Positions 25,189-43,937 of a stretch of DNA of 64,000 nt are shown one piece after another (position 1 is the first letter of the stretch; every line of letters begins with the position of its first letter). The notes under the pieces are model-generated. The model saw only the letters and a list, made by a program, of their open reading frames with translations, was not told the origin of the DNA and searched no databases. The stretch covers positions 1 through 64,000 of the forward strand of contig JANQSN010000003.1 in assembly GCA_028284045.1 (NCBI GenBank), written 5' to 3'. The stretch is from Alphaproteobacteria bacterium. GTDB taxonomy: Bacteria; Pseudomonadota; Alphaproteobacteria; DSM-16000; Inquilinaceae. The position numbers were made by a program, and so were the translations under genes.

Positions 25189-26088
25189 TCACGGGTCGGG
25201 TGGCTGTCTCCGCGGGGCGGCGGCGTAGTGCTGCTCCAGGCGGTCATAGTGGTCCTTCTCCACCGCCCTCTGGCGGACGGCGAAGCTGGCGACGGGGCCG
25301 GTCTCGTCCATGCGGCCGTCGGCCTTCAGGCGGGTCAGCGCGTTCTGAAGCCCCCACAGTGCGCCCTGCAGGGCCACATTGGCGTAGAGCACGAGCGCGA
25401 AGCCCATGGCGTCCAGGTCGGCGAGGTCGACGACCGGCGTTCGGCCGCCGACCACTAGGTTGACGAGCTGCGGCATGCCGGCCAGGCGGCGCGGGATCTC
25501 GCGGATTTCCGCCAGGCTCTCCGGCGCCTCGACGAAGGTGATGTCCGCGCCGTCCTCGATGAAGGCCTGCGCGCGCTCGATCGCCGCGTCGAGGCCTTGG
25601 GTGGCGCGGGCGTCGGTGCGCGCCAGGATCATCAGATTGCCGTCCTGGCGGGCGTCCACCGCCGCCTTGATCCGGCTGCGCGCCTCGGCGAGGTCGACCA
25701 CGTCTTTGCCGGCGAAGTGTCCGCAGCGCTTCGGCGACACCTGGTCTTCCAGTTGGATCGCGCTGGCCCCGGCGCGCTCCAGCGTGCGCACGGTGTGGCG
25801 GACGTTCAGCGCGTTGCCGAACCCCGTATCGGCATCCACCACCATCGGCAGGTCGGTGACGTTGCGGATGGCGGCGGTGTGCTGGGCGATCTCGCTGAGC
25901 GACAGGAAGCCGAGATCCGGCATGCCGAGATAGGCGTTGGTCAGCCCGGCGCCGGAGAGATAGAGCGCCTCGAACCCCTGATCGGTGATGACGCGCGCGG
26001 CCAGCGCGTCGGCAGCGCCGGGCAGCAGCAGGGCGCCGCCGCGCGCCAGCCGCTGGCGAAACCGGCGATTGATCTCGTGTGTCAGCAT
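25189..26088 (-). CDS. Isocitrate lyase/PEP mutase superfamily protein (2-methylisocitrate-lyase-like carboligase/lyase)
   Basis: I prefer the ATG at 26088 (299 aa) with TTGAGGG upstream over the TTG five codons earlier. Superfamily marks are the Mg-binding VVDADTGFG and the catalytic loop SPKRCGHFAGK with Cys122. The KRCGH sequence occurs in lyases such as PrpB and dimethylmalate lyase, and is absent from the oxaloacetate-decarboxylase branch. So C-C cleavage of a substituted malate or (methyl)isocitrate is the likelier chemistry; the substrate is not known. It follows the kinase/binding-protein fusion by 36 bases on the same strand and faces a tricarboxylate transporter operon across the divergent promoter, which fits use of an imported tri- or dicarboxylate. 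Confidence 0.82.
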   Translation of the reverse strand: MLTHEINRRFRQRLARGGALLLPGAADALAARVITDQGFEALYLSGAGLTNAYLGMPDLGFLSLSEIAQHTAAIRNVTDLPMVVDADTGFGNALNVRHTVRTLERAGASAIQLEDQVSPKRCGHFAGKDVVDLAEARSRIKAAVDARQDGNLMILARTDARATQGLDAAIERAQAFIEDGADITFVEAPESLAEIREIPRRLAGMPQLVNLVVGGRTPVVDLADLDAMGFALVLYANVALQGALWGLQNALTRLKADGRMDETGPVASFAVRQRAVEKDHYDRLEQHYAAAPRRQPPDP

Positions 26089-26124
26089 CGGGAGAGCCCT
26101 CAAGGAACGCGGACCGGATTGCGA

Positions 26125-28587
26125 TCACCGCTCCGGCTGGATCGACGCTTCCCAGCCGGACAGGAACCGCCGGCGCTTCAGGTCGTCGAGATAGGTCAAC
26201 AGGCCGGGGCCGAGGCGGATCGGCAGGAAGCTGCCCTCATAGGCGCGCAGCCGCCTGAGCGGCATCGTGTTGACGTCCGGCATCGGCAGGATCGGCAGGA
26301 GCTGGGATCGGGTGGCGATCAGGCGCTGGCCTTCCTGCGACAGCAGGAAACGGACGAACCGTTCCCCGTCCTCCGGATTGGCCGCCCCGCGCGGCACGAA
26401 GGCGGTGCGGGTCATCACCAGATTGTAGTCGTCCAAGAGATGCACACCGATCCGCGGATCGTCCTCTGCCGCCGCCAGGGCGTAGGAGCCGATGACGTTG
26501 AAGGCGAGCAAGAGGTCGCCCGCCGCGGCGGCGGCGGCCATGTCGGCGGTGCAGCAGAAGGTCTGCACCCCGGCCCGGCCCAGCACCTCCATCATGCGCT
26601 GGGCCTCCATGCCCTGCACCAGGTCCTGGGTGGCGTAGAGATAGCCGATGCCCGAGCGGCGCAGGTCGTAGGTGCCGATGCGCCCCATCAGCCGGGCTTC
26701 GTTCTCGCGGATGAAGCGCGGCAGATCCTGATGCAGGCGCGGCAGGATGTCCGCCGCCAGCGCCGGGCGATTGTAGAGGATCGCCGCGGGCTCGAAGGTG
26801 AAGCCGTAGAGCTCCGACCGCCACATCGCCCAATCGGGCAGCGCGGCCGCCTCGACCGACTGCAGGGGCCGCGCCAGGCCGCGGTTCACCAGGTCGACCT
26901 GCAGGTCCATCGCCGAGCTGATCACGACATCCGGCGTGTCGTCCGGTGCGGCCGACAGCATGTGGCTGTGCAGATCGACGGTCTGGAACTCCTGGTAGGT
27001 GAGGTCGATGGCCGGATGGCGCGTCTCGAATTCGTCCAGCAGCGGCGCCACCGCCGGCGTGTCGGTCGAGCTGAAGACCTGCAGGCTTCGGGTCTGCGCC
27101 CCGGCCGGCCCGGTCCAGGCCAGGCAGGCCGCCAGCAGGCCGACCAGCACCGCCGATCGCGCGCCGCGCGCGCCCGACCCTGGTGGCCGGGCCATCGGGA
27201 AGGACAAGACGGCGCGCAGCCCGCCCTTCTTGGAGGTCTCCAACCGGAGGCCGGCGCCATGCCCCTCCGCCACCGCGCGGACGATGGCCAGCCCCAGGCC
27301 GGAGCCCGCGCTGTCGCGGGCGAGCGAGGTGAACCGCTCCGTCGCCCGCGCGCGCTGGTCTTCGGGAATGCCGGGACCGGCATCGGCGACGGAGAGGGCG
27401 ATCCGCTGCGGCGGCTCGGCGCGCAGGTCGATGTCGATCGTGTTGTCGGGCGGGCCGTGGCGCAGCGCATTCTCGATCAGATTGCGCAGCGCCTCGCGGA
27501 TCGACAGCGCGTCGCCGGCCACGACATCGGTGTCGTCGGGGAACTCGTCGACGTCGAAGGTCACGGTGACGCCGCGCATCCGGCTGTCGCGCAGCATCTC
27601 CGCAAGCTGGTCGCGCACCAGCGGCTTCAGCGCCACCGGCGGCAGGCTGGCCTGGTCGGTCCGGTGAATGACCATGGCGTGGGCGAGAAGCTGGTTGGTC
27701 AGCCGCACCGTGCGCTGGGCCTGGCGATCCGCCTTGATCATGCGGTCGCGCATCTCGCCGGGATCGGCGGCGTCGGCGGCGAGGGAGAGCTGGCCCTGCA
27801 GGGCGGACAGCGAGGTGCGGGTCTGATGCGCGACATCCGCGATGAAGGTCTCGGTCAAGGTGCGGTTGGACGACAGCCGTTCGATGAAGCCGTTGATCGC
27901 CTCGAACAGGCTTTGGATCTCCCGCGGGGGCGTGGCCTTCAGATGCGACCGGTCGCTGGGCTCGCGGGTCCTGAGATCGGCTTCGATCTGGCGCAACGGC
28001 GCCAGCGCCCGGCGGATCGCCAGCCAGACGAAGCCCAGCCCGATCAGCGATATCGCGGCGAGGCCGGCCATGCCGTTCAAGAACAGCGAGATCTGCCGCG
28101 CGCGCCGCGCCTGGGTGGTCTGGCCGATCTGAACCGCCACCCATTCCCGCCCACCCGGAACGGTCAGCGTCCGACCCTTCACGACGAAGCGGAAGCTGCC
28201 GCCGCGATAGGGTGCGTTGAAGAAGATGGAGGCGGCCGCCGGTGCGGCGTCCTCCGGCATCGGCAGGTCGGCAGCACCGGTGATCTCACCCGATCGCGGG
28301 GAGAACACCCGGTAGACGACGCGGTCGTCCGGCGCCAGCGCCAGGATATCCATGGCGGAGAAGGGCAGGTCCACGGTCGGGCCGTCGGTGCCGGGCGTCA
28401 CCCGCTCCAGGATCGACAGGGCGGCACCGGCCAGCAGCAGGTCGTAGGTCTGGTTGGCCGCGGCGCGCGCGTAGTTCCAGAACAAAACGGCGATGATCAG
28501 CAGAAGCGCGATGAACCCCAACGCGATCAACGACAACAGCCGCCGCTGGATGGAGTAGATCCGGGGATCAGTTTTCGTCGGTGACAT
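26125..28587 (-). CDS. Sensor histidine kinase fused to a periplasmic solute-binding protein (TctE-like kinase + ABC-type SBP)
   Basis: One uninterrupted frame of 820 residues. N-terminal half: TM1 (~18-38), a ~130-residue periplasmic domain, TM2 (~172-192), an H-box with His254 (FIADVAHQTRTSLSALQG), an N-box (REALRNLIENALRHG) and G-boxes (VADAGPGIP, GSGLGLAIV). After the kinase comes Met465, a basic stretch and a hydrophobic segment ending GPAGAQ, which reads exactly like a signal peptide. It is followed by a ~320-residue iron/solute-binding-protein-like domain (LQVFSSTDTPAVAPLLDEFE). Topology therefore allows the kinase in the cytoplasm and the C-terminal binding domain in the periplasm. 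The start overlaps the response-regulator stop. Met465 has no clear ribosome site, so a separate binding protein is less likely than a fusion, though cleavage at the internal signal is possible. Confidence 0.85.
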   Translation of the reverse strand: MSPTKTDPRIYSIQRRLLSLIALGFIALLLIIAVLFWNYARAAANQTYDLLLAGAALSILERVTPGTDGPTVDLPFSAMDILALAPDDRVVYRVFSPRSGEITGAADLPMPEDAAPAAASIFFNAPYRGGSFRFVVKGRTLTVPGGREWVAVQIGQTTQARRARQISLFLNGMAGLAAISLIGLGFVWLAIRRALAPLRQIEADLRTREPSDRSHLKATPPREIQSLFEAINGFIERLSSNRTLTETFIADVAHQTRTSLSALQGQLSLAADAADPGEMRDRMIKADRQAQRTVRLTNQLLAHAMVIHRTDQASLPPVALKPLVRDQLAEMLRDSRMRGVTVTFDVDEFPDDTDVVAGDALSIREALRNLIENALRHGPPDNTIDIDLRAEPPQRIALSVADAGPGIPEDQRARATERFTSLARDSAGSGLGLAIVRAVAEGHGAGLRLETSKKGGLRAVLSFPMARPPGSGARGARSAVLVGLLAACLAWTGPAGAQTRSLQVFSSTDTPAVAPLLDEFETRHPAIDLTYQEFQTVDLHSHMLSAAPDDTPDVVISSAMDLQVDLVNRGLARPLQSVEAAALPDWAMWRSELYGFTFEPAAILYNRPALAADILPRLHQDLPRFIRENEARLMGRIGTYDLRRSGIGYLYATQDLVQGMEAQRMMEVLGRAGVQTFCCTADMAAAAAAGDLLLAFNVIGSYALAAAEDDPRIGVHLLDDYNLVMTRTAFVPRGAANPEDGERFVRFLLSQEGQRLIATRSQLLPILPMPDVNTMPLRRLRAYEGSFLPIRLGPGLLTYLDDLKRRRFLSGWEASIQPER

Positions 28588-29242
28588 AGGCCATGTACCC
28601 AAGGCCCCGCGCCGTCTTGATCGTCAAAGGGGTGCCGTCGATCTTCTTGCGCAGACGGGTCACCAGTTGTTCCACGGCGTTGAGGCTGGGCGACTCGTCG
28701 AAGGTATAGAGCTTGTCGGCCACCTCCTCCTTGGTCAGCATTCGGCCCAGATTGTCGATCAGGATCTCCAGCAGTTGAATCTCCCGCGCCCGGAGTTGGG
28801 CATCCTCGCCGTCGATGGTCGCGCGCTTGGCGCCGCGGTCGAAGACGAAGCCGCCGGCGGAGAAGATGTTGCTGGCGGCGCCGGAGCGGCGGCGCGCCAG
28901 TACCCGGCAGCGCGCCGTCAGCTCGCGGAAGTCGAAGGGCTTGACCATGTAGTCGTCGGCGCCGGCATCCAACCCGATCACCCGATCGTCGATCTGCGAG
29001 CGCGCGGTCAGGATCAAGACCGGCGTGGTGTCGCCGCGCGCGCGCAGAGACCGCAGTACCTCATAGCCGCTGCGGCCGGGCAGATTAACGTCCAGCAGCA
29101 CGATGTCGAAGCAGGCATGGCGCAGCAGCTCGTTGGCGATGTTGCCGTCGATCTCGCGGTCCACGGAATGCCCTTCGGCACGCAGGCGATCGAGGATCGT
29201 CTCGGCGAGGTCATCGTTATCTTCGACCAAGAGCATGCGCAT
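28568..29242 (-). CDS. tctD: OmpR-family response regulator, TctD-like
   Basis: The 224-residue protein has a receiver domain (acidic pocket VEDNDD, phospho-acceptor Asp51 in LLDVNLPG, Lys101 in MVKPF) and a C-terminal winged-helix DNA-binding domain (ending in KTARGLGYMAYV). Its stop overlaps the start of the kinase/binding-protein gene, so the two form a two-component pair. TctD-type regulators switch on tricarboxylate transporter genes, and tctC-tctB-tctA lies divergently 213 bases away, the expected target. The symbol is by family and context. Confidence 0.9.
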   Translation of the reverse strand: MRMLLVEDNDDLAETILDRLRAEGHSVDREIDGNIANELLRHACFDIVLLDVNLPGRSGYEVLRSLRARGDTTPVLILTARSQIDDRVIGLDAGADDYMVKPFDFRELTARCRVLARRRSGAASNIFSAGGFVFDRGAKRATIDGEDAQLRAREIQLLEILIDNLGRMLTKEEVADKLYTFDESPSLNAVEQLVTRLRKKIDGTPLTIKTARGLGYMAYVTDEN

Positions 29243-29455: not shown

Positions 29456-30427
29456 ATGAAGTTCGTGCGCCTTTGCGCCGCCGGCGCGGTCGCCGTCGGG
29501 GTCTCGATGTCGTCGTCGGCCATGGCCCAGGTCGACAATCCCGAATGCGTCGCCCCGGCCAATCCCGGGGGCGGGTTCGACCTGACCTGCCGGATCGCCC
29601 AGACCGGCCTGGAAGGCCATCTCGACGATGCGGTCCAGGTGACCTTCATGCCGGGCGGCATCGGCGCGGTGGCCTTCAACCTGTTCAACACCACCCGGAC
29701 CGACGATCCGACGGCCATCGTCGCCTTCTCCACCGGCTCGCTGCTCAACATCGTGACCGGCAAGTACGGCGAGTTCAGCGAAGAAGACGTCCGCTTCGTC
29801 GCCACCGCGGGTGCCGATTTCGGCGCCGTCGTCGTGCGCGAGGACAGCGACTACGAGAGCCTCGATCAGGTCATGGCCGACCTGGAGGCGAACCCGCAGG
29901 ACGTGGTGATCGGTGCCGGCGGCTCGGTCGGCTCGCAGGACTGGATGAAGGCGGCGCTGTTGATCCGTGATGTCGGCGGCGCGCCGATGGACATGCGCTA
30001 TGTCGCCTTCGACGGCGGCGGTGACGCCATCGCGGCGCTGCTGGGCGGCTCCATCGAGCTGTACATGGGCGATGTCGGCGAGATGTCGGCGCATCTGGAG
30101 GCCGGCACCATGCGCATCCTGGCGGTGATGTCGCCGGAGCGTCTGCCGGAACCCTTCGCTGAGTTCCCGACGGCGCGTGAGCTGGGCTACGACGTCGACT
30201 GGACGATCCTGCGCGGCTTCTACATGGGCGGCGATGTCTCCGACGATGCGTACGACGCCTGGGTCGCGGCGTTCGATGCCGCGTACGAGACGGAAGAGTT
30301 CGCCGCGCTGCAGGCCGAACGCGGCCTCTTGTCGCTGAACCTCTCCGGTGCGGAGCTGGAGGCGACGATCGCGTCGAATATGGAGACGCTGCGCACGATC
30401 GCCGAAGAAGCCGGCCTCGTCGAGTAA
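29456..30427 (+). CDS. tctC: Tripartite tricarboxylate transporter substrate-binding protein TctC
   Basis: The 323-residue precursor has a signal peptide (cleaved near residue 25, AMA/Q) and a GGGGGAAG ribosome site. The TctC/Bug fold is recognised from ANPGGGFDLTCRIAQTGL near the N-terminus and VTFMPGGIGAVAFNLF, which line the carboxylate-binding cleft in this family, plus the VIGAGGSVGSQD region. It captures a carboxylate in the periplasm and delivers it to TctA/TctB. First gene of the operon, followed by a hairpin and tctB. Confidence 0.92.
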   Translation: MKFVRLCAAGAVAVGVSMSSSAMAQVDNPECVAPANPGGGFDLTCRIAQTGLEGHLDDAVQVTFMPGGIGAVAFNLFNTTRTDDPTAIVAFSTGSLLNIVTGKYGEFSEEDVRFVATAGADFGAVVVREDSDYESLDQVMADLEANPQDVVIGAGGSVGSQDWMKAALLIRDVGGAPMDMRYVAFDGGGDAIAALLGGSIELYMGDVGEMSAHLEAGTMRILAVMSPERLPEPFAEFPTARELGYDVDWTILRGFYMGGDVSDDAYDAWVAAFDAAYETEEFAALQAERGLLSLNLSGAELEATIASNMETLRTIAEEAGLVE

Positions 30428-30507: not shown

Positions 30508-30645
30508 TTGCGCTGGCCATAGGTTCGACGCCCCGGAACCGCTGTCGCGTGTGCTTGGGGATCGTGCCTTGCAGGCCACCTCGCTGAGGCGACGGGGCCG
30601 GTTCTTCCCATTGGTTTGGCCCCCAATCAAGGGGAGGTGCCATCC

Positions 30646-31209
30646 ATGGCAGACCGGATCTTCGCCGGCGTCCTGTTGATCGTGACGTTGGCCTATGGGG
30701 CCATCGCCTTCACCGCGATCAGCGCGCCGTTCCAATACGATCCCCTCGGTCCCGAAAGCTGGCCCCGCATCCTGGCGGTGGTCGCTTTCCTGTGCGGGCT
30801 CGGCATTCTGTTCCGACCCGATGTTCAGGGGCTGGGGGTCGCCAAGCCCACCTGGGTGCGGCTCGTGGCGATGCTGGTGCTGCTGCTGGCCTATGCGGAG
30901 CTGTATGAGCCGCTGGGCTTCATCGCCTCCACCTTCCTGTTCGCCGCCGTGGTCAGCGTGATGCTGGGCGCGCGCGTCCATCACGCGGCGTTCTTCGGCG
31001 TCGCGGCGGGCGGTCTGGGCTACCTGCTCTGCGTGGTGCTGCTGGAACTCAACCTTCCGGAGCCCGCGATCCTGGAGATGGACTGGGCACAATCCGACAG
31101 CGTCGACGATGACGCTGCGCCGGACGCGCCCGCGGATACGACACCCGCGGATACGACGCCCGCGGATACGACGACGGAAACCACCACGGACGAAGGGGGG
31201 ACCGACTGA
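30646..31209 (+). CDS. tctB: Tripartite tricarboxylate transporter small membrane subunit TctB
   Basis: I chose the ATG at 30646 (187 aa) because of the GGGGAGGTG ribosome site; an earlier in-frame ATG at 30616 lies before it. Four hydrophobic segments cover residues ~5-25, 40-55, 75-92 and 95-135, as usual for TctB. The C-terminus carries an unusual acidic/Thr-rich tail made by a tandem PADTT repeat. The TGATG overlap with tctA indicates translational coupling. Confidence 0.9.
   Translation: MADRIFAGVLLIVTLAYGAIAFTAISAPFQYDPLGPESWPRILAVVAFLCGLGILFRPDVQGLGVAKPTWVRLVAMLVLLLAYAELYEPLGFIASTFLFAAVVSVMLGARVHHAAFFGVAAGGLGYLLCVVLLELNLPEPAILEMDWAQSDSVDDDAAPDAPADTTPADTTPADTTTETTTDEGGTD
31129..31173 (+). 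repeat. Three tandem 15-bp repeats in the tctB 3' end
   Basis: Three copies of CCCGCGGATACGAC(A/G) run head to tail at 31129-31143, 31144-31158 and 31159-31173, encoding a PADTT-type tail. Copy number could vary without breaking the frame because the unit is five codons. Confidence 0.75.
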
Positions 31210-32735
31210 TGGAAACGGTGCTGTCCGGTCTCGCCACCGGCTTCGGGGTCGCCCTCCACCCGCTCAACCTGTCGCTCGTGATGATCGGCTGCTTCGCCGG
31301 CACGCTGATCGGCGCGTTGCCCGGCCTCGGGCCGATCAACGGCGTGGCCATCCTGCTGCCGATCGCCTATGGCCTCGGCTTACCGCCGGAAAGCGCGCTG
31401 ATCCTGCTGGCCGGCATCTACTACGGGGCGGAGTATGGGGGGCGCATCTCCTCCATCCTGCTGAACGTGCCGGGCGACGCCAGCGCGGTCATGACCACGC
31501 TGGACGGTCACCCGATGGCGTTGAAGGGCCAGGCGGGACGCGCCTTGTCGCTGTCGGCCGTGGCCAGCTTCTTCGGCGGCACCCTGGCGGTCATCCTGAT
31601 CACCATGTTCGGTCCGCTCTTGGCGGCGTTCGCCGTCACCTTCTCGCCGGCGGATTATGTGGCGCTGATGGTCTTCGCCTTCGCGTCGCTCGCCTCGCTG
31701 GTCGGCAAGAGCATGGTGAAGACCCTGCTGGGCGCCCTGATCGGTCTGATGCTGGCGACCATCGGCATCGACGCCAATACCGGCGTGCCCCGCTACACCT
31801 TCGGGCTGCCGGACATCCTGGCCGGCATCGACTTCCTGATCGTCGTGGTCGGCCTGTTCGGCATGGCGGAGCTGTTGCACCTGGTGGAGCAGCAGGTCGC
31901 CGGCAAGCTGAAGAGCCTGCCGGTCGACAAGACCTTCGTGCGCATGAAGGACCTGGCGCTGGCCAAGTGGACGATCCTGCGCAGCTCGCTGATCGGTTTC
32001 TTCATCGGCGTGCTGCCGGGCACCGGCGCGTCGGTCGCCTCGGCCGTCGCCTATGGCACGGAGAAGCGGGCGGCCGGGGTGGACGGCGAGAAGTTCGGCA
32101 CCGGCGACGTGCGCGGCCTGGCCGCGCCGGAGTCGGCGAACAACGCCTCGGCCGGCGGCGCCATGGTGCCGATGCTGACGCTGGGCATCCCGGGTTCCGG
32201 CACCACGGCGATCCTCTTGGGCGCGTTGCTGATGTTCAACGTCCAGCCGGGTCCGCTGATGTTCGAGCAGCGGCCGGAGATCGTCTGGGGCCTGATCGCC
32301 TCGATGTATCTCGGCAATGTCGCGCTGCTGTTGATCAACCTGCCGCTGGTCGGGCTGTTCGCCCGGGTGCTGACCATCCCGCAGCGCTACCTGACCCCGC
32401 TGATCGCCATCCTGGCCTTCATCGGCATCTACTCCATCGTCGGCAACCCGTTCGACCTGTACCTGATCACGCTGCTCGGCGTGTTCGGCTGGATCCTGCG
32501 CAAGCTGGACTTCGCGCTGGCGCCGGTGATCCTCGGCTTCGTGCTCGGCAGCCTGTTCGAGGACAACCTGCGGCGCGCCCTGTCGATCTCCGGCGGGGAC
32601 TGGTCGATCCTGGTCGGCGACTGGAAGAGCGTGTCGCTCTACATCCTCGCCCTGGTGGTGGTCGCGGTGCCGATCTGGATGGCGCGCCGTGCCCGCAAGG
32701 CCGCCCAGGCCGCGGCCGGTAGCGAGAGGATGTAG
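31209..32735 (+). CDS. tctA: Tripartite tricarboxylate transporter large membrane subunit TctA
   Basis: The 508-residue, very hydrophobic protein of about 11-12 membrane segments has the full family length. Conserved TctA sequences are GALPGLGPINGVAILLP near the N-terminus and the second inverted-repeat motif VLPGTGASVASAVAYGTEKR, followed by GLAAPESANNASAGGAMVP. It forms the ion-coupled carboxylate channel with TctB. It is followed after four bases by the ATP-citrate-lyase-like genes, so transport and first metabolism of the substrate are probably co-expressed. Confidence 0.93.
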   Translation: METVLSGLATGFGVALHPLNLSLVMIGCFAGTLIGALPGLGPINGVAILLPIAYGLGLPPESALILLAGIYYGAEYGGRISSILLNVPGDASAVMTTLDGHPMALKGQAGRALSLSAVASFFGGTLAVILITMFGPLLAAFAVTFSPADYVALMVFAFASLASLVGKSMVKTLLGALIGLMLATIGIDANTGVPRYTFGLPDILAGIDFLIVVVGLFGMAELLHLVEQQVAGKLKSLPVDKTFVRMKDLALAKWTILRSSLIGFFIGVLPGTGASVASAVAYGTEKRAAGVDGEKFGTGDVRGLAAPESANNASAGGAMVPMLTLGIPGSGTTAILLGALLMFNVQPGPLMFEQRPEIVWGLIASMYLGNVALLLINLPLVGLFARVLTIPQRYLTPLIAILAFIGIYSIVGNPFDLYLITLLGVFGWILRKLDFALAPVILGFVLGSLFEDNLRRALSISGGDWSILVGDWKSVSLYILALVVVAVPIWMARRARKAAQAAAGSERM

Positions 32736-34033: not shown

Positions 34034-36757
34034 ATGTACCGCCAAGGCATCGAGGGTCTTCCGTATTATCTGGGCGTCCGGTCGCTGGCCGACATCGCCA
34101 CGCGCGACGACCGGGTCGTGGTGCTGAACATCCTGGGCGGCGAGTCGTCCCACGTCACGCCGATCAGCCACGCCTTCTCCGGCGGCAATATCGTGTTCGG
34201 CACCTCGCCGGGGCGCGGCGGCCAGGTGCTGGAGACGCCGGGCGGCGACATCCCCGTCTACAACAATGTGCGCGAGGGGCTGGACGCCGGTCACAGCTTC
34301 AATGCCGGCGTCGTCTACCTGCCGCCCACGGCGGTGCGCGACGGGGTGGCGGAGCTGGTCCGGGTCAATCCGGGACTGAAGAAGATCGTCATCATCACCG
34401 AGAAGGTGGCGGTGCACGATGCGCGGGAGATCCGCGCGCTCGGCCAGGCCAACGGTGTCGACATCTTCGGCGGCAACTGCCTGGGCGTGGCGGATAGCTG
34501 GAACCGGGTGCGCATCGGTGGGGCGCTGGGCGGCGACCATCCGGAGGAGTCGCTGCAGCAGGGCTCCGTCGCGATCTTCTCCAATTCCGGCGGCTTCACC
34601 ACCACCATCGCCCAGTACCTGGCGACCGGCGGCTGGGGGACGACGACGCTGATCTCCTCGGGCAAGGACGTCTACATCCACTACGCCGCGCGCGACTTCG
34701 CCTATGGCCTGGCGAACGACCCGCGCTCCAAGGCGGCGGTCTTGTATGTCGAGCCCGGCGGTTACTACGAGCAGGAGCTGGCCTTCGACAAGCCGGTGGT
34801 CGCCTGCGTGGTCGGGCGGTGGAAGACCAAGCTGACCCGCGCGGTCGGGCATGCCGGGGCGCTAGCCGGCTCCGGCGACCGGGCGGAGGACAAGGAACGC
34901 TGGTTCATGGAGGCGTTCGGGACGGAAGGCCTGTTCACCCCCGAAGCCGCCGATCCGTCGCGCCTGGTTTCGCCCAAGGGCGCGGTGGTCACCAACATCT
35001 CCCACATCCCGGCGGCGCTGACCGCGGTGATGGCGCTGCACGGGGCGGCGCCGGACTTTGCGCCGCGCGGATCGCTCGCCCTGAAGCCGTGGATGGCCAA
35101 CGACCAGCGCCTCGACCTGCCGGCGGAGCTGGCCTTGGCGCCGGTTCAGGCGATGGCGCCCTATGACCAGCAGATTGGGGCGCTGGGACGCCAGATCGGC
35201 GCCCAGGTCGCGCGCCAGAACATGAAGGACCGCTCCGGCGCGTCCTTGATGGACTCGCGCACCCAGGTGACCTCGGTCCACGGCATCACCGTCTTGGACC
35301 TGGCGCGGGTGCCGTTGGAGGCGAATTTCGCGCTGCCGCTGGTGCACGAGATCGGCTCGGAGAACGACCGCGCCATGCTCGACATCGCCGTCGCCGCGGA
35401 GGTCAATCTGGTGGGCGATGCGACTCTGGTCGCGGCGGAGGCGGCGCGCGAGGCCGGCAACACGCCCAATACGGTGATGGCGGCGGCGGCGTCGATCGTC
35501 GGCAGCAACCGGGTGGGCCGCGCGCTCGCCTGCGCGCGGGCGCTGATCGACCTGTTCGCCTTCTCCGGCCTGACCGATCCGCGGGACGAGGACTTCGACG
35601 TCGCGGCCATCGCCGTCGACGAGGCGACCCGCGCGCTGTTCGCCGCGCGGCCGGACGAGGCGGACGACCCGCGGCCCGAAGCGATGACCCAGGCGGTGCG
35701 CGACCGCAACTGCCGCTCCGCCTTCGTGCGCTTCCTGGAGAGGTTGGACCAGCGGCCGTCGCGCGACGCGCTCTTGGCGGCGATCGCCATGACGATCGCG
35801 TGGGAGCCGCTGATGCGCAAGAAGATCAGCCGGCTGACGGCGGAGACGCTGCCCTGGTATCTGCGGCTCTACGGCGTGATGGTCGGGGCGTCGATCCCGG
35901 CGCACAACCACCAGCCGGGCTCGCTGTGCGGGATCCCGCGCGCGGAGCGGTTCGGCACCTGGACCATGGCCGATCTCTGCTATCTGGCGATCACCGGCAA
36001 GAAGCCGACCGCCGCGCAGGCGCGGCCGCTGCAGATGCTGATCGGTCTCTTGATCTCCAACGGACCCGGCGCGATCTCTGCGCAAGGGGCGAAGGGCGCG
36101 GTCTCCGCCGACGGGCCGCAGACGCCGGGCCGCGTGCAGATCAACAAGGCGATGGTCGGCTTCCTGACCCATACCGGCTACAGCCACGGCGGCAACGGCT
36201 ATGAGGGCATGGCCTTCCTGTTGGACGAGTTCAAGGACACCGACCTGCGCGATCCGACCGATGCCGATCACGGCCTCGACCTGAAGGCTCGCGCCCATGT
36301 CTTCGCGGAACGCTACGCCGTCGCCAAGACGCAGGCGAAGGAGATGGGGCGCGAGGTGCGCGCATTGCCGGGCGTGCACCATCCGGTGTTCCGCGGCGAC
36401 GCGGTCAACTACGACCCGCGCGAGCGGTTCATCGCCCAGGCCCTGGCCGAGGATGGTGCCTACAACATCTTCCACGCGTATTATCTGGAGCTGGTGCAGG
36501 CGCTCTACGATGTCGGCGCCTCGCCGTACGTGTTCTGCGTGAACGTCGATGCGGTGATCGCCGCCTTGCTGCTCGGCCTATTGTGGACCGACTACAAGAC
36601 CGGCGCGCTGAGCGAGCGCGACCTGGAAAGTGCGGCCTTCACCGTCTTCCTCTACGGTCGCATGGTCGGCGCGGCGGCGGAGATCGACGACCACCTGAAC
36701 CGCGGCCGCAACATGGACACCCGCACCCCCGCCGACCGCTGCGGCTACGTGGTGTAG
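34034..36757 (+). CDS. ATP-citrate lyase-like large subunit (CCS-alpha + citrate-synthase-homology domain), divergent (907 aa)
   Basis: A GAGGAAAGG site precedes the ATG. Residues ~1-330 are a CoA-binding/CoA-ligase alpha domain with the phospho-His motif GHAGALAGSG (His273). The C-terminal ~240 residues align by eye with the citrate synthase homology domain of ATP-citrate lyase. They retain GVHHPVF (His783), VNVDAVIAALLL (Asp839) and YGRMVG (Arg876), but the first catalytic His (in DHGPAVSGAH of human ACLY) is Asn676 here (ISNGPGAISAQ). About 300 extra residues, also helical and citrate-synthase-like, separate the two parts, so the protein is much longer than usual large subunits of ~600. 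The synthetase half looks functional; the lyase half is altered. The product may not be acetyl-CoA plus oxaloacetate. Last gene of the tct operon. Confidence 0.78.
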   Translation: MYRQGIEGLPYYLGVRSLADIATRDDRVVVLNILGGESSHVTPISHAFSGGNIVFGTSPGRGGQVLETPGGDIPVYNNVREGLDAGHSFNAGVVYLPPTAVRDGVAELVRVNPGLKKIVIITEKVAVHDAREIRALGQANGVDIFGGNCLGVADSWNRVRIGGALGGDHPEESLQQGSVAIFSNSGGFTTTIAQYLATGGWGTTTLISSGKDVYIHYAARDFAYGLANDPRSKAAVLYVEPGGYYEQELAFDKPVVACVVGRWKTKLTRAVGHAGALAGSGDRAEDKERWFMEAFGTEGLFTPEAADPSRLVSPKGAVVTNISHIPAALTAVMALHGAAPDFAPRGSLALKPWMANDQRLDLPAELALAPVQAMAPYDQQIGALGRQIGAQVARQNMKDRSGASLMDSRTQVTSVHGITVLDLARVPLEANFALPLVHEIGSENDRAMLDIAVAAEVNLVGDATLVAAEAAREAGNTPNTVMAAAASIVGSNRVGRALACARALIDLFAFSGLTDPRDEDFDVAAIAVDEATRALFAARPDEADDPRPEAMTQAVRDRNCRSAFVRFLERLDQRPSRDALLAAIAMTIAWEPLMRKKISRLTAETLPWYLRLYGVMVGASIPAHNHQPGSLCGIPRAERFGTWTMADLCYLAITGKKPTAAQARPLQMLIGLLISNGPGAISAQGAKGAVSADGPQTPGRVQINKAMVGFLTHTGYSHGGNGYEGMAFLLDEFKDTDLRDPTDADHGLDLKARAHVFAERYAVAKTQAKEMGREVRALPGVHHPVFRGDAVNYDPRERFIAQALAEDGAYNIFHAYYLELVQALYDVGASPYVFCVNVDAVIAALLLGLLWTDYKTGALSERDLESAAFTVFLYGRMVGAAAEIDDHLNRGRNMDTRTPADRCGYVV

Positions 36758-36789
36758 CGCACCGTAGGCCGAATCCGACAGTAGGGAGC

Positions 36790-36960
36790 CCCTCCCCCTC
36801 GATGGGGGAGGGTTCGGGAGGGGGTGATGGCGCCGCGGTTGCCGTCTCTCGCCGGACCCTCGGCGCCATTCAAGAGCCCAATCGAGTACGCGCTTCTTCA
36901 GCCGTCTCCTTGGACGACAAGCATCACCCCCACCCAACCCTCCCCCATCAAGGGGGAGGG
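36790..36960. repeat. GC-rich nested inverted-repeat element (copy A)
   Basis: Hairpin 1 has arms CCCTCCCCC at 36790-36798 and GGGGGAGGG at 36804-36812 with loop TCGAT. Hairpin 2 has the same arms at 36938-36946 and 36952-36960 with loop ATCAA. The flanking GGGTGATG/CATCACCC sequences also mirror each other, so the whole element is one imperfect inverted repeat of about 40-bp ends. It sits between the convergent acl-like and dctM genes. The same structure recurs at 43833-43919. Confidence 0.8.
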
Positions 36961-37011
36961 CTTTAACGCGTTGGGGCGGAACACATTTGTGAGCCCCTTC
37001 GGGACTCGGCC

Positions 37012-38274
37012 CTACAGGAACACATGCGTGATCGTCGGGGCGTAGGTGACCAGGGCGAGCACGGTCAGGCTGACCAGGTAGAAGGGCGCCAGTTCCAGCA
37101 CCACGCGGCCGATCGAGGTCTGGGCGATGGTGGAGGAGATGAACAAGGTCGTGCCCACCGGCGGCGTGTAGAGGCCGATCGACAGGTTGACCACCATCAT
37201 CACGCCGAGCTGGATCGGGTCGAGGCCGATCGACCCGGCAACGCCGATGAACAGCGGCCCCAACAGCAGGATCGCGGCGGGCAGGTCGAGGAAGGTGCCG
37301 ACCACCAGCATGATCACGTTCATCGACAACAGGATCATCCAGTCCGCCGTGAACGTGCCGATCAGCCAGTCCGACAGGGCCTGCGGCACCCGCTCCAGCG
37401 TCAGGATCCACTGCACCAGGCTGGAGGCCATGATCACCAGCATCACCGCCCCGGTCATGATGCCGGTCTGGATCAGGCATTTCAGGATGTGGCGCCAGGT
37501 CAGGTCGCGATAGACCACCTTGGCGACGAACAGCGCATAGGCCACCGCCATGACGCTGACCTCGGTCGGCGTGGCGATGCCCAGCCGCAACGTCATCACC
37601 ACGAAGATCGGCATGATCAGGGCCGGCAGCGCGAAGCCGAGATTGCGCAAGAAGGCGGCCGCCCCGCCCGCCGGCGGGGTCAGCGGGAAGCCGCGCAGCG
37701 TGCCGGAGACCCAGCACACGCTGAGCAGCCCGACCGCCAGCATCAGGCCCGGCACGATGCCGGCGATGAACAGGTCGAGGATCGAGGCGTTGGAGACCAG
37801 GCCGAACAGGATCAGCGGGATCGACGGTGGAATCAGCACCGAGATGGTGGCCGAGGAGGCGTTGACCGCTGCGGCAAAACCGGCCGGATAGCCTTCCCGC
37901 TTGGTCATCGGGATCAGCGCGTTGCCGAGCGCGGAGGCATCCGCCACCGCCGATCCCGACACGCCGCCGAACATCACCGAGCCGACGACGCTGACCTGGC
38001 CCAGCCCGCCGCGCAGCCGCCCCACCAACAGCTTGGCGAACTGGATCAGATAGTCGCCGAAGCGCCCCGACATCATCAGATTGCCGGCGAGGATGAAGAA
38101 CGGGATCGCCAGCATCGGGAAGGACTGGGTGGGCGTGTAGAGGCGCTGCACCGACACGGCCAAGGGTCGGTCGGCGATCAGCAACGCCCCGCCCGCGGCG
38201 ATCAGCAGCGCATGCGCCACCGGCACCGCCAGGAACAGCAGGATGGGAAACAGCCAGGCGAGGGTCAGCGCCAT
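37012..38274 (-). CDS. dctM: TRAP transporter large permease (DctM)
   Basis: The 420-residue protein has about 12 hydrophobic segments and typical DctM motifs: GRLRGGLGQVSVVGSVMFGG, GSAVADASALG, LIPPSIPLILFG and LSIGLYTPPVGTTLF. It is the ion-coupled translocation subunit of a TRAP transporter. It is the last gene of a minus-strand operon with dctQ, dctP, split transketolase and an SDR dehydrogenase. A 27-bp hairpin lies between dctQ and this gene. Confidence 0.93.
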   Translation of the reverse strand: MALTLAWLFPILLFLAVPVAHALLIAAGGALLIADRPLAVSVQRLYTPTQSFPMLAIPFFILAGNLMMSGRFGDYLIQFAKLLVGRLRGGLGQVSVVGSVMFGGVSGSAVADASALGNALIPMTKREGYPAGFAAAVNASSATISVLIPPSIPLILFGLVSNASILDLFIAGIVPGLMLAVGLLSVCWVSGTLRGFPLTPPAGGAAAFLRNLGFALPALIMPIFVVMTLRLGIATPTEVSVMAVAYALFVAKVVYRDLTWRHILKCLIQTGIMTGAVMLVIMASSLVQWILTLERVPQALSDWLIGTFTADWMILLSMNVIMLVVGTFLDLPAAILLLGPLFIGVAGSIGLDPIQLGVMMVVNLSIGLYTPPVGTTLFISSTIAQTSIGRVVLELAPFYLVSLTVLALVTYAPTITHVFL

Positions 38275-38320
38275 CGACCGCTCCTTATTGCGGCGCTTTG
38301 CGCCGCGGTTGGCTCGGAGC

Positions 38321-38390
38321 CCGCCCGCTCCCCCACCCGGCCCCCCATTCGAGGATACTGCCGTGGGGGGCCGGGTGGGGGAGCGGGCGG
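38321..38390 (-). repeat. 27-bp perfect inverted repeat between dctQ and dctM
   Basis: Arms 38321-38347 and 38364-38390 are perfectly complementary, with a 16-base loop, and are rich in C on one side and G on the other. It lies inside the operon, 22 bases after the dctQ stop and 46 bases before the dctM start. It has no T-run. It could attenuate dctM or be a mobile palindromic repeat; its sequence is related in composition but not identical to the elements at 36790 and 43833. Confidence 0.8.
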
Positions 38391-38412
38391 TTCAGCATCG
38401 AGCGAAAGAGCC

Positions 38413-39003
38413 CTAGCCCGCCACCCCCGCATTCAGCGAGGGGTGAGACGAGAAGGCCAGGCGATAAGCCGTGGTCAGCGCGGTCAGCCCGATCATGACG
38501 AAGCCGTAGACCAGGCTGGCATAGCCGACCGACTGGGCGATCCCGGTCTCCGCCAGATGGCTGGAATGCGCGGCGCGGATGATCGGCAGGGCCGCATCGA
38601 CCACGAACACCGCGGTGACCGCGATCAGCAGGTTGACGGCGATCAGCAGCCATCGGCGCACCGCCGTCGGCAGCAGCGTCAACAGCGCCACGACCGCGAT
38701 ATGCCGGCCGGCCTGGGCCGCCATCACCGCCCCCGCAACGACGATCCAGGGGAACAGGATCGAGGGGATCTCATACGCCCAGATGATGCCCTCGGCGAAG
38801 GCATAGCGCAGCAGCACATTGATGAAGATCGCGAAGAACAGGAAGGTCAGCGCCGACACGACGATCGCCGCCGACGTCCAGTAGACGATCCTGTCGATCG
38901 CCGCGACGACGGAGGGGATGGGGCCGCCCGGCCCCATCCCGCTCTGCCCCATCACACCCGGGGCATTGCCGGCCGGACCCGTCGGGTCCGGCAGGTCGGT
39001 CAC
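38413..39003 (-). CDS. dctQ: TRAP transporter small permease (DctQ)
   Basis: The 196-residue protein begins with GTG overlapping the dctP stop (GTGA). After a Gly/Pro-rich cytoplasmic N-terminus of ~35 residues it has four membrane segments and the DctQ pattern NVLLRYAFAEGIIWAYEIPS with a following FPWIVVAGA. It partners DctM. The long Gly/Pro/Met N-terminal extension is somewhat unusual. Confidence 0.9.
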   Translation of the reverse strand: MTDLPDPTGPAGNAPGVMGQSGMGPGGPIPSVVAAIDRIVYWTSAAIVVSALTFLFFAIFINVLLRYAFAEGIIWAYEIPSILFPWIVVAGAVMAAQAGRHIAVVALLTLLPTAVRRWLLIAVNLLIAVTAVFVVDAALPIIRAAHSSHLAETGIAQSVGYASLVYGFVMIGLTALTTAYRLAFSSHPSLNAGVAG

Positions 39004-39986
39004 TGGGCCGCCTCGTCCGCCGCTGCGCGCAGGCGGGTGACGAAGTCGCCCAGCTCGGCCTGCCAGTCGTCATAGACGCTGGCGGTCGCGGCCTTGAACG
39101 CCTCGGTGTCGACCTCGGCGAACTCCGCGCCTTCCGACTCCAGCGTGGCGACCAGGGATACCGAGTCGATCAGGCTGCGGCCACGCTGATACCAGCCGGC
39201 CTCGTCGACCGCGCGCTGGATCACCGCCCGCTCCTCGTCGGCCAGGCCTTCCCACCAGTCGCGGCCGGCGATGATCGGCGTGCCCTCATACTTGTGGGCC
39301 GACAGCGAGATGAACGGCGTGATCTCGTGCAGACGCGCGGAGTAGATGTTGGTCAGCGGGTTTTCCTGACCTTCGAAGGTGCCGTTGCGCAGCGCCGTCG
39401 GCAGCTCGCTCCACGCGAGCGGCGCGGGGTTAGCGCCCAGCGCCTCGAACGCGTCCAGGGTGGCGCGGTCCGGCGGGGTGCGGATCTTCATGCCTTCGAT
39501 GTCGGCCGGCGTGCTCATATGCGCCTCGACATGGGTGATGTGGCGGATGCCGTTGTCCCACCAGCCGAGGATGACCATGCCGTGCTCGCCGGCCAGCGTG
39601 TTCAGCTCTTCGCCGATCGGGCCGTCGAGGACCTCCCACGCCGCGGGCAGCTCGGCGAACAGGAAGGGCAGGCCGAGCGCGCCGACCTCCGGGATCACCT
39701 GGGAGAACGCGCCCTGCGAGTTCGCGGTGATGTTGATGACGCCGGCCTGGACGGAGGTGATCATCTCCGCATCATCGCCCAGCGTCGCGCTGGGGGCCAC
39801 GTTCACGCTCCAGGCGCCGCCGGAATACTGGTCGATCAGAGCAGCGAACATCTCCGCGGCGTCATAGCGCGGATTGCCCGGGTTGGCGCCGTGGGCGAAG
39901 ACGATCTCGTCGGCCGCGGCGGGGGCGGCCAAGCCGGCCGCCAGAGCGAACGCACCGATCCAGGCGGTCTTGCCGATAGGGGTCAT
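39000..39986 (-). CDS. dctP: TRAP transporter substrate-binding protein (DctP)
   Basis: The 328-residue precursor has a GGGAGGAG ribosome site and a signal peptide (cleaved near residue 25, AAA/D). DctP-family features are the start EIVFAHGANPGNPRYDAAE, the carboxylate-binding region KIRTPPDRATLDAFEALGAN with the conserved Arg, and GTFEGQENPLTNIYSARLHE. The conserved Arg points to a carboxylated ligand, as in most DctP proteins. Next to split transketolase and an SDR, the ligand may be a sugar acid or another polyhydroxy acid; this is inference. Confidence 0.92.
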   Translation of the reverse strand: MTPIGKTAWIGAFALAAGLAAPAAADEIVFAHGANPGNPRYDAAEMFAALIDQYSGGAWSVNVAPSATLGDDAEMITSVQAGVINITANSQGAFSQVIPEVGALGLPFLFAELPAAWEVLDGPIGEELNTLAGEHGMVILGWWDNGIRHITHVEAHMSTPADIEGMKIRTPPDRATLDAFEALGANPAPLAWSELPTALRNGTFEGQENPLTNIYSARLHEITPFISLSAHKYEGTPIIAGRDWWEGLADEERAVIQRAVDEAGWYQRGRSLIDSVSLVATLESEGAEFAEVDTEAFKAATASVYDDWQAELGDFVTRLRAAADEAAQ

Positions 39987-40096
39987 GGACTCCTCCCGTT
40001 TTCTCAGTCGTTGACGGTCGGGCGGCTCACACTCTTAGGCGCTTTCCTCAGGCGACGGCGCGCGCCCGGCCGGCCGCCGCCCGAGGGGATGGGTGG

Positions 40097-41110
40097 TCAG
40101 CGCCCAAGCTCCTGTCGGACCGTCGCGGCGACGCCTTCGCCGTCCAGCCCGTAATGACGGTAGAGATGCGTCGGCGGCCCGAGGATCGAGTACGCGTCGG
40201 GCATGCCGATGCGCACCAGGCGGGCGCCCGCGCCTTCGTCGGCCAGCACCTCCGCCACCGCTGCGCCGAAGCCGCCGGTGACGTTGTGCTCTTCGGCGGA
40301 GAACAGGACCTTCTGGGTGCTGGCCGCGCCCAGGATCGCCTCGCGGTCGATCGGCCGGATGGAATACATGTCGACGACCCGCAGGCCGATGCCGTCGGCC
40401 TTCAGCCGGTCATGGGCGTCGAGTGCGGCGCTGACCAGGTTGCCGATGGCGAAGACGGTGGCGTCGTCGCCGTCGCGCAGCGTGTGGGACCCGCCGATGC
40501 GCCAGTCCGGCGGCGTGTCGTAGACCGGGGCCTCGCGGCCGCGGCCGACCCGGAAATAGACCGGGCCGTCATGGTCCATCATCGCCGGCAGGGCCGCACG
40601 GATGGCGTTGCCGTCGCACGGCGCCATCAGCGTTAGACCGGCCATGGTGCGCAGCACGCCGATGTCTTCGTTGCAGTGGTGCGAGGTGCCGTAGAACCCC
40701 ATGGCGATGCCGGAATGGGTGCCGACCATGCGCACCGGCAGATGCGTGTAGCAGATGTCGTTGCGGATGTTCTCGCAGGCCATCAGGGCCAGGAAGAACG
40801 AGTAGTTGGAGATGACCGGGGTGAAGCCGGCGGTGGCCAGCCCGGCCGCCGCACCGACCATGTTCCGCTCGGCGATGCCGAAGTTGAAGTAGCGCTCCGG
40901 ATAGCGCTCGCCGAAGTCGTGCACCTGGGTCGGGCGGCCGAGATCGGCGGTGCAGACGACGATGTCGTCGCGCCCGGCTTCGGCCAGCTCGATCAGCGTC
41001 TTGCCGGTGGTGAGCTGACGTGACAGCGCCAACGACCCGACCATGTCCCAGGACTTCTCGTCGAAGCCCTCGCGCACGGTCGTCTCGGGGGGGAAGTCGG
41101 TTGTCGTCAT
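40097..41110 (-). CDS. Transketolase C-terminal subunit (pyrimidine-binding/C-terminal half)
   Basis: The 337-residue protein covers the pyrimidine-binding and C-terminal domains of transketolase. It has the pyrimidine-binding Glu context FNFGIAERNMVGAAAGLA, the THSGIAMGFYGTSHH loop and RVVDMYSIRPID. It begins one base after the stop of the N-terminal subunit, so the pair forms a split enzyme. Split transketolases of this kind act in specialised ketose and sugar-acid pathways as well as in pentose metabolism, so the donor substrate is unknown. Confidence 0.88.
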   Translation of the reverse strand: MTTTDFPPETTVREGFDEKSWDMVGSLALSRQLTTGKTLIELAEAGRDDIVVCTADLGRPTQVHDFGERYPERYFNFGIAERNMVGAAAGLATAGFTPVISNYSFFLALMACENIRNDICYTHLPVRMVGTHSGIAMGFYGTSHHCNEDIGVLRTMAGLTLMAPCDGNAIRAALPAMMDHDGPVYFRVGRGREAPVYDTPPDWRIGGSHTLRDGDDATVFAIGNLVSAALDAHDRLKADGIGLRVVDMYSIRPIDREAILGAASTQKVLFSAEEHNVTGGFGAAVAEVLADEGAGARLVRIGMPDAYSILGPPTHLYRHYGLDGEGVAATVRQELGR

Positions 41111-41111
41111 G

Positions 41112-41969
41112 TCACGTCAGCTCCCGCTCCAACTCGGCATAGGCGCGGTCGCGGTCGGCCGGACCGAGGAAGCCCAGATGCCACTGCCAGGTTCCTTCCA
41201 TGAAGCTGACGCCCTTGCCGGCCACGGTGTCGGCCAGCACGACGGTGGGCTGGTCGGTCGGGGCGTTCAGCGCAGTGTTCAGCGCGTCGAACACCTGGTC
41301 CAGGTCGTGCCCGTCGGCGAGGTCCAGCACGCGCCAACCGAAGGCGCGCCATTTCTCGTCGAGCGGCGCGGTGTCCATGATTTTCTGCGTCTCGCCGTCG
41401 GAGCCGACCTTGTTGATGTCGACGATCCCGATCAGGTTCGACAGCTTCCAGTGCCCGGCGCTGATCGCCGCCTCCCAGACCTGGCCTTCGGTCTGCTCGC
41501 CGTCGCCCATCATGCACACGACGCGCGCAGGCGAGCCGCGCAGGCGCAAACCTGCTGCCATGCCGACGGAGACGGAGAGATTGTGGCCGATGGAGCCGGA
41601 GGAGAAGTCCGCCCCCCGGACCTTGCGCATGTCCGGATGGTCGCCCAGCGCGCTGCCCAGGCGGGTGTAGCCGTCCAGGTCTTCCTTGGGGAAGAAGCCG
41701 AGATCGGCCAGCACCGGGTAGAGCCCGATGGCCGCGTGGCCCTTGCCCATGGTGAACCGGTCGCGATCGGCCCAGCCGGGATCTTCCGGGTTCACGTGCA
41801 GAAGCTGGTAGTAGAGGACCGACAGCAGCTCCGCGATGGAGAAGGCGGAGCCGTAATGGCCCGACCCGCAGATATCGGTCAGCCGCACGACCTCCTTGCG
41901 GATCATGCGGGCCTTTTCCTTCAACTCGTCCCGCGAGACGTTGCGGACCGACCGGCTGGTATGCGCCAT
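41112..41969 (-). CDS. Transketolase N-terminal subunit (thiamine-diphosphate-binding half)
   Basis: The 285-residue protein has the ThDP/Mg motif GDGEQTEGQVWEAA followed by NKVGSDG, the transketolase N-terminal signature (DICGSGHYGSAFSIAELLSV), and GKGHAAIGLYPVLADLGFF. Length equals the PP domain only; the missing half is the next gene. It lies 40 bases downstream of the SDR gene in the same operon as a TRAP transporter. Confidence 0.9.
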   Translation of the reverse strand: MAHTSRSVRNVSRDELKEKARMIRKEVVRLTDICGSGHYGSAFSIAELLSVLYYQLLHVNPEDPGWADRDRFTMGKGHAAIGLYPVLADLGFFPKEDLDGYTRLGSALGDHPDMRKVRGADFSSGSIGHNLSVSVGMAAGLRLRGSPARVVCMMGDGEQTEGQVWEAAISAGHWKLSNLIGIVDINKVGSDGETQKIMDTAPLDEKWRAFGWRVLDLADGHDLDQVFDALNTALNAPTDQPTVVLADTVAGKGVSFMEGTWQWHLGFLGPADRDRAYAELERELT

Positions 41970-43823: not shown

Positions 43824-43855
43824 AAAAAAAAGCCCTCCCCCTCGATGGGGGAGGG
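43824..43855 (-). terminator. Probable intrinsic terminator downstream of katG
   Basis: Read on the minus strand, the hairpin CCCTCCCCC-loop-GGGGGAGGG (43855-43833) is followed by C and then a run of eight T (43831-43824). That is the layout of a rho-independent terminator for the katG transcript. It doubles as part of repeat copy B. Confidence 0.7.
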
Positions 43856-43919
43856 TTGGGAGGGGATGACGTGTGTCGCCATCACCCCCACCCCGGCCCT
43901 CCCCCATCGAGGGGGAGGG
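43833..43919. repeat. GC-rich nested inverted-repeat element (copy B)
   Basis: Two hairpins with the same 9-bp arms as copy A: 43833-43855 (loop TCGAT) and 43897-43919 (loop ATCGA). They face each other across a shorter spacer. The sequence GGGTTGGGAGGGGATGAC between the hairpins mirrors CATCACCCCCACCCC. It lies between the convergent LysR and katG genes. Confidence 0.8.
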
Positions 43920-43937
43920 AGTCCTGACGGCCCGCGA

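Follow-up and report, generated by a model that had tools for sequence, protein, structure and literature searches.

As cited in PMC3522073, PMC6783814 and PMC6315080, Hugler & Sievert proposed in 2011 a family of ATP citrate lyases (ACLs) termed type II. These enzymes consist of two subunits and are represented by Magnetococcus marinus MC-1, for which Mmc1_3638/3639 are the postulated genes (PMC6783814), by the symbionts of Riftia, Tevnia and Lamellibrachia and by Thioflavicoccus mobilis. In the open-access literature we found no work on a type II enzyme in purified form and no paper tying a tct operon to an ACL. Type I ACLs (human ACLY, Chlorobium AclAB, Methanothrix) contain phospho-histidine, ATP-grasp/citrate-binding, CoA-ligase and lyase parts. 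Whether their citrate synthase homology module cleaves citryl-CoA or serves allostery only is debated (PMC10115795); because this paper argues that the module of human ACLY is allosteric, the exact cleavage site is debatable even for type I. In ACLY, His900 lies together with Arg1065 near the CoA sulfur, through a water molecule (PMC10115795), and the active-site residues of citrate synthase are His274, His320 and Asp375 (PMC8455617). In Hydrogenobacter thermophilus, the synthetase (6hxq) and the citryl-CoA lyase (CCL; 6hxp) are separate proteins, and these, along with ACL, are the nearest solved relatives of the gene pair described here.

The pair lies in a window of 64,000 nucleotides, by which we mean the whole stretch of DNA that was analysed, from an alphaproteobacterium of the Inquilinaceae (Table 1). 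The original prediction had tied it to tricarboxylate uptake and this was borne out, since the gene order on the plus strand is tctC-tctB-tctA-aclB-aclA, with the acl pair at the end of the operon. The predicted large-subunit frame is real; its start lies 13 bp past the end of the small-subunit gene and is preceded by a ribosome-binding-like GAGGAAAG. For the small subunit, the better start is the ATG that gives a protein of 426 residues, and tctA ends 4 bp before it. The best NCBIfam match of the divergent response regulator is TctD (PRK15479, E 3e-55), under the cut-off of that model. The sensor kinase frame beyond it holds 2CSK_N, HATPase_c and HisKA domains followed by SBP_bac_8/11; its extracellular solute-binding part starts at about residue 480 with a signal-peptide-like sequence. 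Because a separate solute-binding gene lies near tctE in some other loci, this frame is either a fusion or the result of a lost stop codon. Next to the operon, at 25189-26103 on the minus strand, is a gene for a PrpB-like protein of the methylisocitrate lyase family with the lyase-type KRCGH motif.

Table 1. Coordinates in the window of the acl pair, its modules and key codons, and the tct genes.
Feature	Position	Strand	Basis
TctE-like sensor kinase + solute-binding protein, in-frame fusion	26125..28602	-	Pfam domains
TctD-like response regulator, divergent from tctC	28568..29242	-	PRK15479 match below cut-off
TctC periplasmic receptor	29456..30427	+	PF03401 E 3e-14
TctB	30616..31209	+	PF07331 E 2e-14
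TctA permease	31209..32735	+	PF01970 E 5e-156
AclB-like small subunit, type II, 426 aa	32740..34020	+	PF16114, PF08442, 6hxq_B
AclA-like large subunit, type II, 907 aa	34034..36757	+	ORF, domain and family matches
Phospho-acceptor His273 codon (GHAGA)	34850..34852	+	His in 99/99
Module 1, degenerate citryl-CoA-lyase-like, residues ~395-600	35216..35833	+	hhalign, VIA-align
Module 2, active-site-bearing citryl-CoA-lyase-like, residues 601-907	35834..36754	+	profile-profile
Asn676 codon, ACLY His900 / citrate synthase His238 position	36059..36061	+	Asn in 98/98
His718 codon, citrate synthase His274 position (Phe935 in human ACLY)	36185..36187	+	98/98
His783 codon, citrate synthase His320 / ACLY His975 position	36380..36382	+	98/98
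Asp839 codon, citrate synthase Asp375 / ACLY Asp1026 position	36548..36550	+	98/98

By homology, the window pair belongs to the type II ATP citrate lyase family, which is little studied but already named. The suggestion of an undescribed route made in the original prediction was thus not upheld, as the family had its name and published primers fit it. These primers, acl2F1 and acl2R1 (PMC3522073), translate to VAKEEWF and NGFEAIA, and the family motifs EDKERWF (residues 285-291) and NGYEGMA (721-727) stand at the corresponding sites, with a constant spacing of about 1.3 kb. The closer loci mostly show 3-6 mismatches to acl2F1 and 1-5 to acl2R1. Since acl2F1 has 7 mismatches in the window itself, no better than in shuffled sequence, the match of the window rests on spacing and on the translated motif. 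Family membership, like the domain order, the residue identities and the operon, was derived from sequence and model.

A genome scan yielded 47 loci with identities of 71-79%, almost all of them alpha- or betaproteobacterial, plus one metagenome-assembled genome labelled Anaerolineae; plasmid records added members at 61-78%, and when 397 genomes of the phylum were searched with a profile, further ones emerged at 49-57%. In genomes of other classes the family occurs at 49-58% identity. Among sampled Alphaproteobacteria the frequency was 3 in 385 genomes. One member, 54.5% identical, lies at 4.57 Mb of a single 4,719,581-bp contig, which we take to be the chromosome of M. marinus MC-1; that position would be plausible for Mmc1_3638/3639. 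The same genome also carries an ordinary citrate synthase, and because this enzyme can run in reverse, citrate cleavage in Magnetococcus extracts is not surely due to the type II gene. A second homologue (L099, 58% identity) is located among genes for a monomeric isocitrate dehydrogenase and for HdrA-like, Fe-S and KorB-like proteins, an arrangement like that reported for the type II clusters of the symbionts and Thioflavicoccus (PMC6315080, PMC11636981). These homologues, in the presumed MC-1 genome and in a reverse TCA (rTCA) cluster, are 54-58% identical to the window protein and share its length class, its Asn676 and the fit to the primer motifs. In a family tree built by a quick method and rooted for drawing only, the more distant members, L099 among them, separated from the group of the window and from a Paraburkholderia/Microvirga plasmid group, and these two from each other.

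Unlike the type II enzymes of the rTCA cycle, the window pair is found in an apparent heterotroph, where it closes a tctCBA operon. The only match to POR_N in the genome of the window is a frame of 1229 codons, taken for an indolepyruvate oxidoreductase, and no rTCA-type 2-oxoglutarate:ferredoxin oxidoreductase was found in that genome; the reverse TCA cycle is therefore not suggested for it. The genome has one ordinary citrate synthase (PF00285), no second one of the PrpC type, and one PrpD-family protein, located away from the operon. The methylcitrate cycle is a weak candidate for the setting of the pair and was set aside, because the PrpB-like neighbour and the distant PrpD-family protein are there but the PrpC-type synthase is not.

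Across 67 loci, the small subunit adjoined the large subunit in 65, and 34 had TctA, TctC or TctE in the vicinity (TctA in 23), so that about half had no recognised tct gene within the stretch examined; the ten more distant loci (L094-L103) had neither TctA nor TctC. The copies of Paraburkholderia and Caballeronia adjoin an MFS transporter and DctA. On the conjugative plasmid pUSP3 of Aminobacter sp. MSH1 the gene pair sits beside dehydrogenase/SDR genes, and a CBASS-type phospholipase and nucleotidyltransferase lie downstream. We assign a probability of about 0.78 to the reading that the pair is a type II ATP citrate lyase ending a citrate (tricarboxylate) uptake operon, which would convert imported citrate to acetyl-CoA and oxaloacetate.

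The small subunit combines an ATP-grasp domain with an ATP-citrate-lyase citrate-binding domain (PF16114, E 3e-15, and PF08442, both over cut-off), and its best solved relative is the large subunit of citryl-CoA synthetase, 6hxq_B (E 1.4e-25), with whose NNT the NNT of its citrate site agrees. The motifs of the citrate site, FGGGAN, GGKxNNTDI and RGGPN, do not vary among 66 small subunits, with no difference between rTCA-type and tct-type members. This argues against cleavage of a different tricarboxylate, whether 2-methylcitrate (yielding propionyl-CoA plus oxaloacetate) or some acid derived from aconitate or tricarballylate. Such a substrate is suggested by several genes: the PrpB-like neighbour of the window operon, a PrpF/4-oxalomesaconate tautomerase family gene that scores over its curated cut-off near relatives, and TcuA/TcuB (tricarballylate) beside the pair in Gemmobacter fulvus; the lack of a PrpC-type enzyme besides the one citrate synthase points the same way. 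Aconitate and tricarballylate, however, reach citrate by ordinary steps, so such neighbours fit citrate too, and we consider a different substrate unlikely.

The domain order of the window pair is that of the type I enzymes. The N-terminal CoA-binding/ligase domain of the large subunit (residues 25-300) matches the small subunit of citryl-CoA synthetase, 6hxq_A (E 3.8e-38), and this ligase part was all that a single-sequence phmmer search against the PDB recovered. The phospho-acceptor His273, noted before as intact, aligns in its GHAGA motif with 6hxq_A. Kinship of the C-terminus with the lyase/citrate synthase homology module of ACL, which had also been proposed, was confirmed: residues 637-901 match NF004869 weakly (E 7e-11), and module 2 aligns with a profile of genomic CCLs (hhalign profile-profile, E 5e-11) and with 6hxp. 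A Pfam scan of the large subunit detected no PF00285 domain, and its relationship to citrate synthase is visible only through profile and fold. The AlphaFold2 model had a mean pLDDT of 69.5; it was good at about 430-670 and fell below 50 in the active-site loops at 677-701 and 783-791. Residues ~397-894 of this model aligned with citrate synthase 1a59 (VIA-align Z 24.0, rmsd 3.8, 342 residues). The window protein also shares the His/His/Asp triad with citrate synthase, from which it differs in being fused to a CoA ligase and in having Asn676 for His238.

When hhalign was used to align the C-terminus directly with ordinary citrate synthase, the result fell into the wrong frame past the N-terminal motif, and the use of CCL as a bridge solved the alignment. 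Asn676 then stands, with no gap after GELPT/GKKPT, at the histidine of the CCL 'DHG' motif ('GELPT...VIDHG' in 6hxp, 'GKKPT...LISNG' in the window protein), as originally predicted, and the match was repeated with the profile of genomic lyases. Orthologues with a histidine here were looked for: all 98 relatives covering the residue, from several proteobacterial classes, have Asn, which rules out chance or a sequencing error. The further claim that this histidine corresponds to citrate synthase His274 had to be corrected. Residue numbers of the solved chains place the DHE histidine of pig citrate synthase (1cts) at 238 and its GPLHG histidine at 274; human ACLY has its DHG histidine at 900, and Phe935 occupies the His274 position. 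In the window protein the His274 position is held by His718, in a GYSHGGNG motif, so that the first triad histidine, reported lost, has a counterpart, and another histidine does stand at the active-site position.

His783 falls on GxGH, Asp839 on NVD and Arg876 on the later Arg of the CCL alignment, in agreement with the original assignment of these three as kept. As aligned through CCL, no member of the citrate synthase triad His274/His320/Asp375 is missing, the counterparts being His718/His783/Asp839. Of the four ACLY lyase residues (His900, His975, Asp1026 and Arg1065), three are kept, as His783, Asp839 and Arg876, and one is not: in the alignment Asn676 replaces the ACLY-type His900, the first triad histidine of the citrate synthase type being retained. 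The window pair has the NNT, HGG, GxGH and NVD motifs in common with the H. thermophilus proteins, from which it differs in the fusion of synthetase and lyase, in an extra degenerate lyase module and in the exchange of the DHG histidine for Asn.

The histidine at the position of Asn676 is conserved in ACLY and most CCLs, and its replacement could mean that the lyase module is dead or structural and that the pair stops at the acyl-CoA, as a citryl-CoA (tricarboxylyl-CoA) synthetase whose product is hydrolysed or used otherwise; a YciA-like acyl-CoA thioesterase gene directly downstream of the large-subunit gene in several loci would fit. We regard this as quite unlikely, since the ~97-98 sequences covering His718, His783, Asp839 and Arg876 show no variation at these residues, unlike the pattern of a dead site, and the rTCA autotrophs with a type II enzyme require one that cleaves (PMC6783814, PMC6315080). 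The original prediction of a tricarboxylate-CoA synthetase that cleaves its product differently or not at all is thus retained in part: the pair resembles an ATP-dependent synthetase of this kind, but the second half of the claim is not supported, the triad being intact.

Among stand-alone lyases, one citryl-CoA lyase that scores over the curated cut-off (L126, genome G385) has Ala for the DHG histidine (MIDAGIAPPS); loss of this histidine has therefore occurred at least twice among the lyases. Four CCL-like proteins (L131, L132, L134 and L135) keep the EHG histidine, have Asn or another residue for the Asp of NVD, and lack the HGG histidine.

The extra length noted earlier was confirmed, the large subunit having 907 residues against 617 in Chlorobium limicola AclA (6hxj_B), some 290 more. 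A citrate-synthase-like helical segment had been proposed for the middle of the protein, and residues ~395-615 (module 1) indeed matched CCL profiles (hhalign E 6e-8) and module 2 (E 5e-8), values that come from single comparisons with shallow profiles. When module 1 was modelled alone (mean pLDDT 73.5), its best VIA-align match was 6hxp (Z 11.4, rmsd 5.3, 162 aligned), followed by the human and Chlorobium lyase modules (Z ~10.5), and no citrate synthase scored above 7.5; a Z of 11 is not decisive alone for a helical domain, and here the profile and fold evidence agree. Foldseek with this model gave no match below E 0.001. None of the conserved lyase histidines is present in module 1, and no other part of the large subunit is as weakly conserved (its identity to L094 and L099 is 40-46%, compared with 70% in the ligase part). 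In sequence and model, it looks like a degenerate copy of the lyase module.

Substrate, reaction, the roles of single residues and the role of module 1 are what we infer in the following scheme for the type II lyase reading. TctABC would import citrate; the ATP-grasp subunit and His273 would form phospho-histidine and citryl-phosphate, then (3S)-citryl-CoA, and module 2 would split citryl-CoA into acetyl-CoA and oxaloacetate. His783 and Asp839 would act as in citrate synthase and ACL, with His718 filling the place of citrate synthase His274, and Asn676 probably hydrogen-bonds the citryl/oxaloacetate end in place of the substrate-binding histidine of the His238/His900 type. Degenerate module 1 is probably an internal pseudo-dimer partner within each subunit. 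A role mainly in synthesis, from acetyl-CoA and oxaloacetate to citrate and ATP, is very improbable, for although ACL chemistry is reversible and citryl-CoA is formed from the products (PMC10115795), the operon carries an importer and not an exporter, and an ordinary citrate synthase is present in the genome.

More tentatively, the lyase site may have been rebuilt family-wide, with His900 exchanged for Asn, His718 taking over and module 1 completing an intramolecular active-site dimer, and heterotrophs may use the enzyme to break down imported citrate, aconitate or tricarballylate at the expense of ATP, not for CO2 fixation; we see this as possible, though with less than even confidence. Three features seem undescribed in the open-access literature: the Asn found throughout the family, the lyase module in tandem and the location in a citrate-uptake operon. 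A large family with Asn for His900, a histidine at the His274 position and a second lyase module offers a natural experiment on the role of the ACL module. Many members belong to operons for tricarboxylate uptake in Alpha- and Betaproteobacteria; our results therefore also suggest that a reverse TCA cycle should not be concluded from the presence of type II ACL genes alone.

Downstream of the operon, at 37012-41969 on the minus strand, genes of a DctPQM-type TRAP transporter adjoin two half-transketolase frames, for the N- and C-terminal halves. This block is flanked by near-identical paired palindromic elements (CCCTCCCCCTCGATGGGGGAGGG with an inverted partner) at 36785-36964 and 43829-43924, which are REP/BIME-like.
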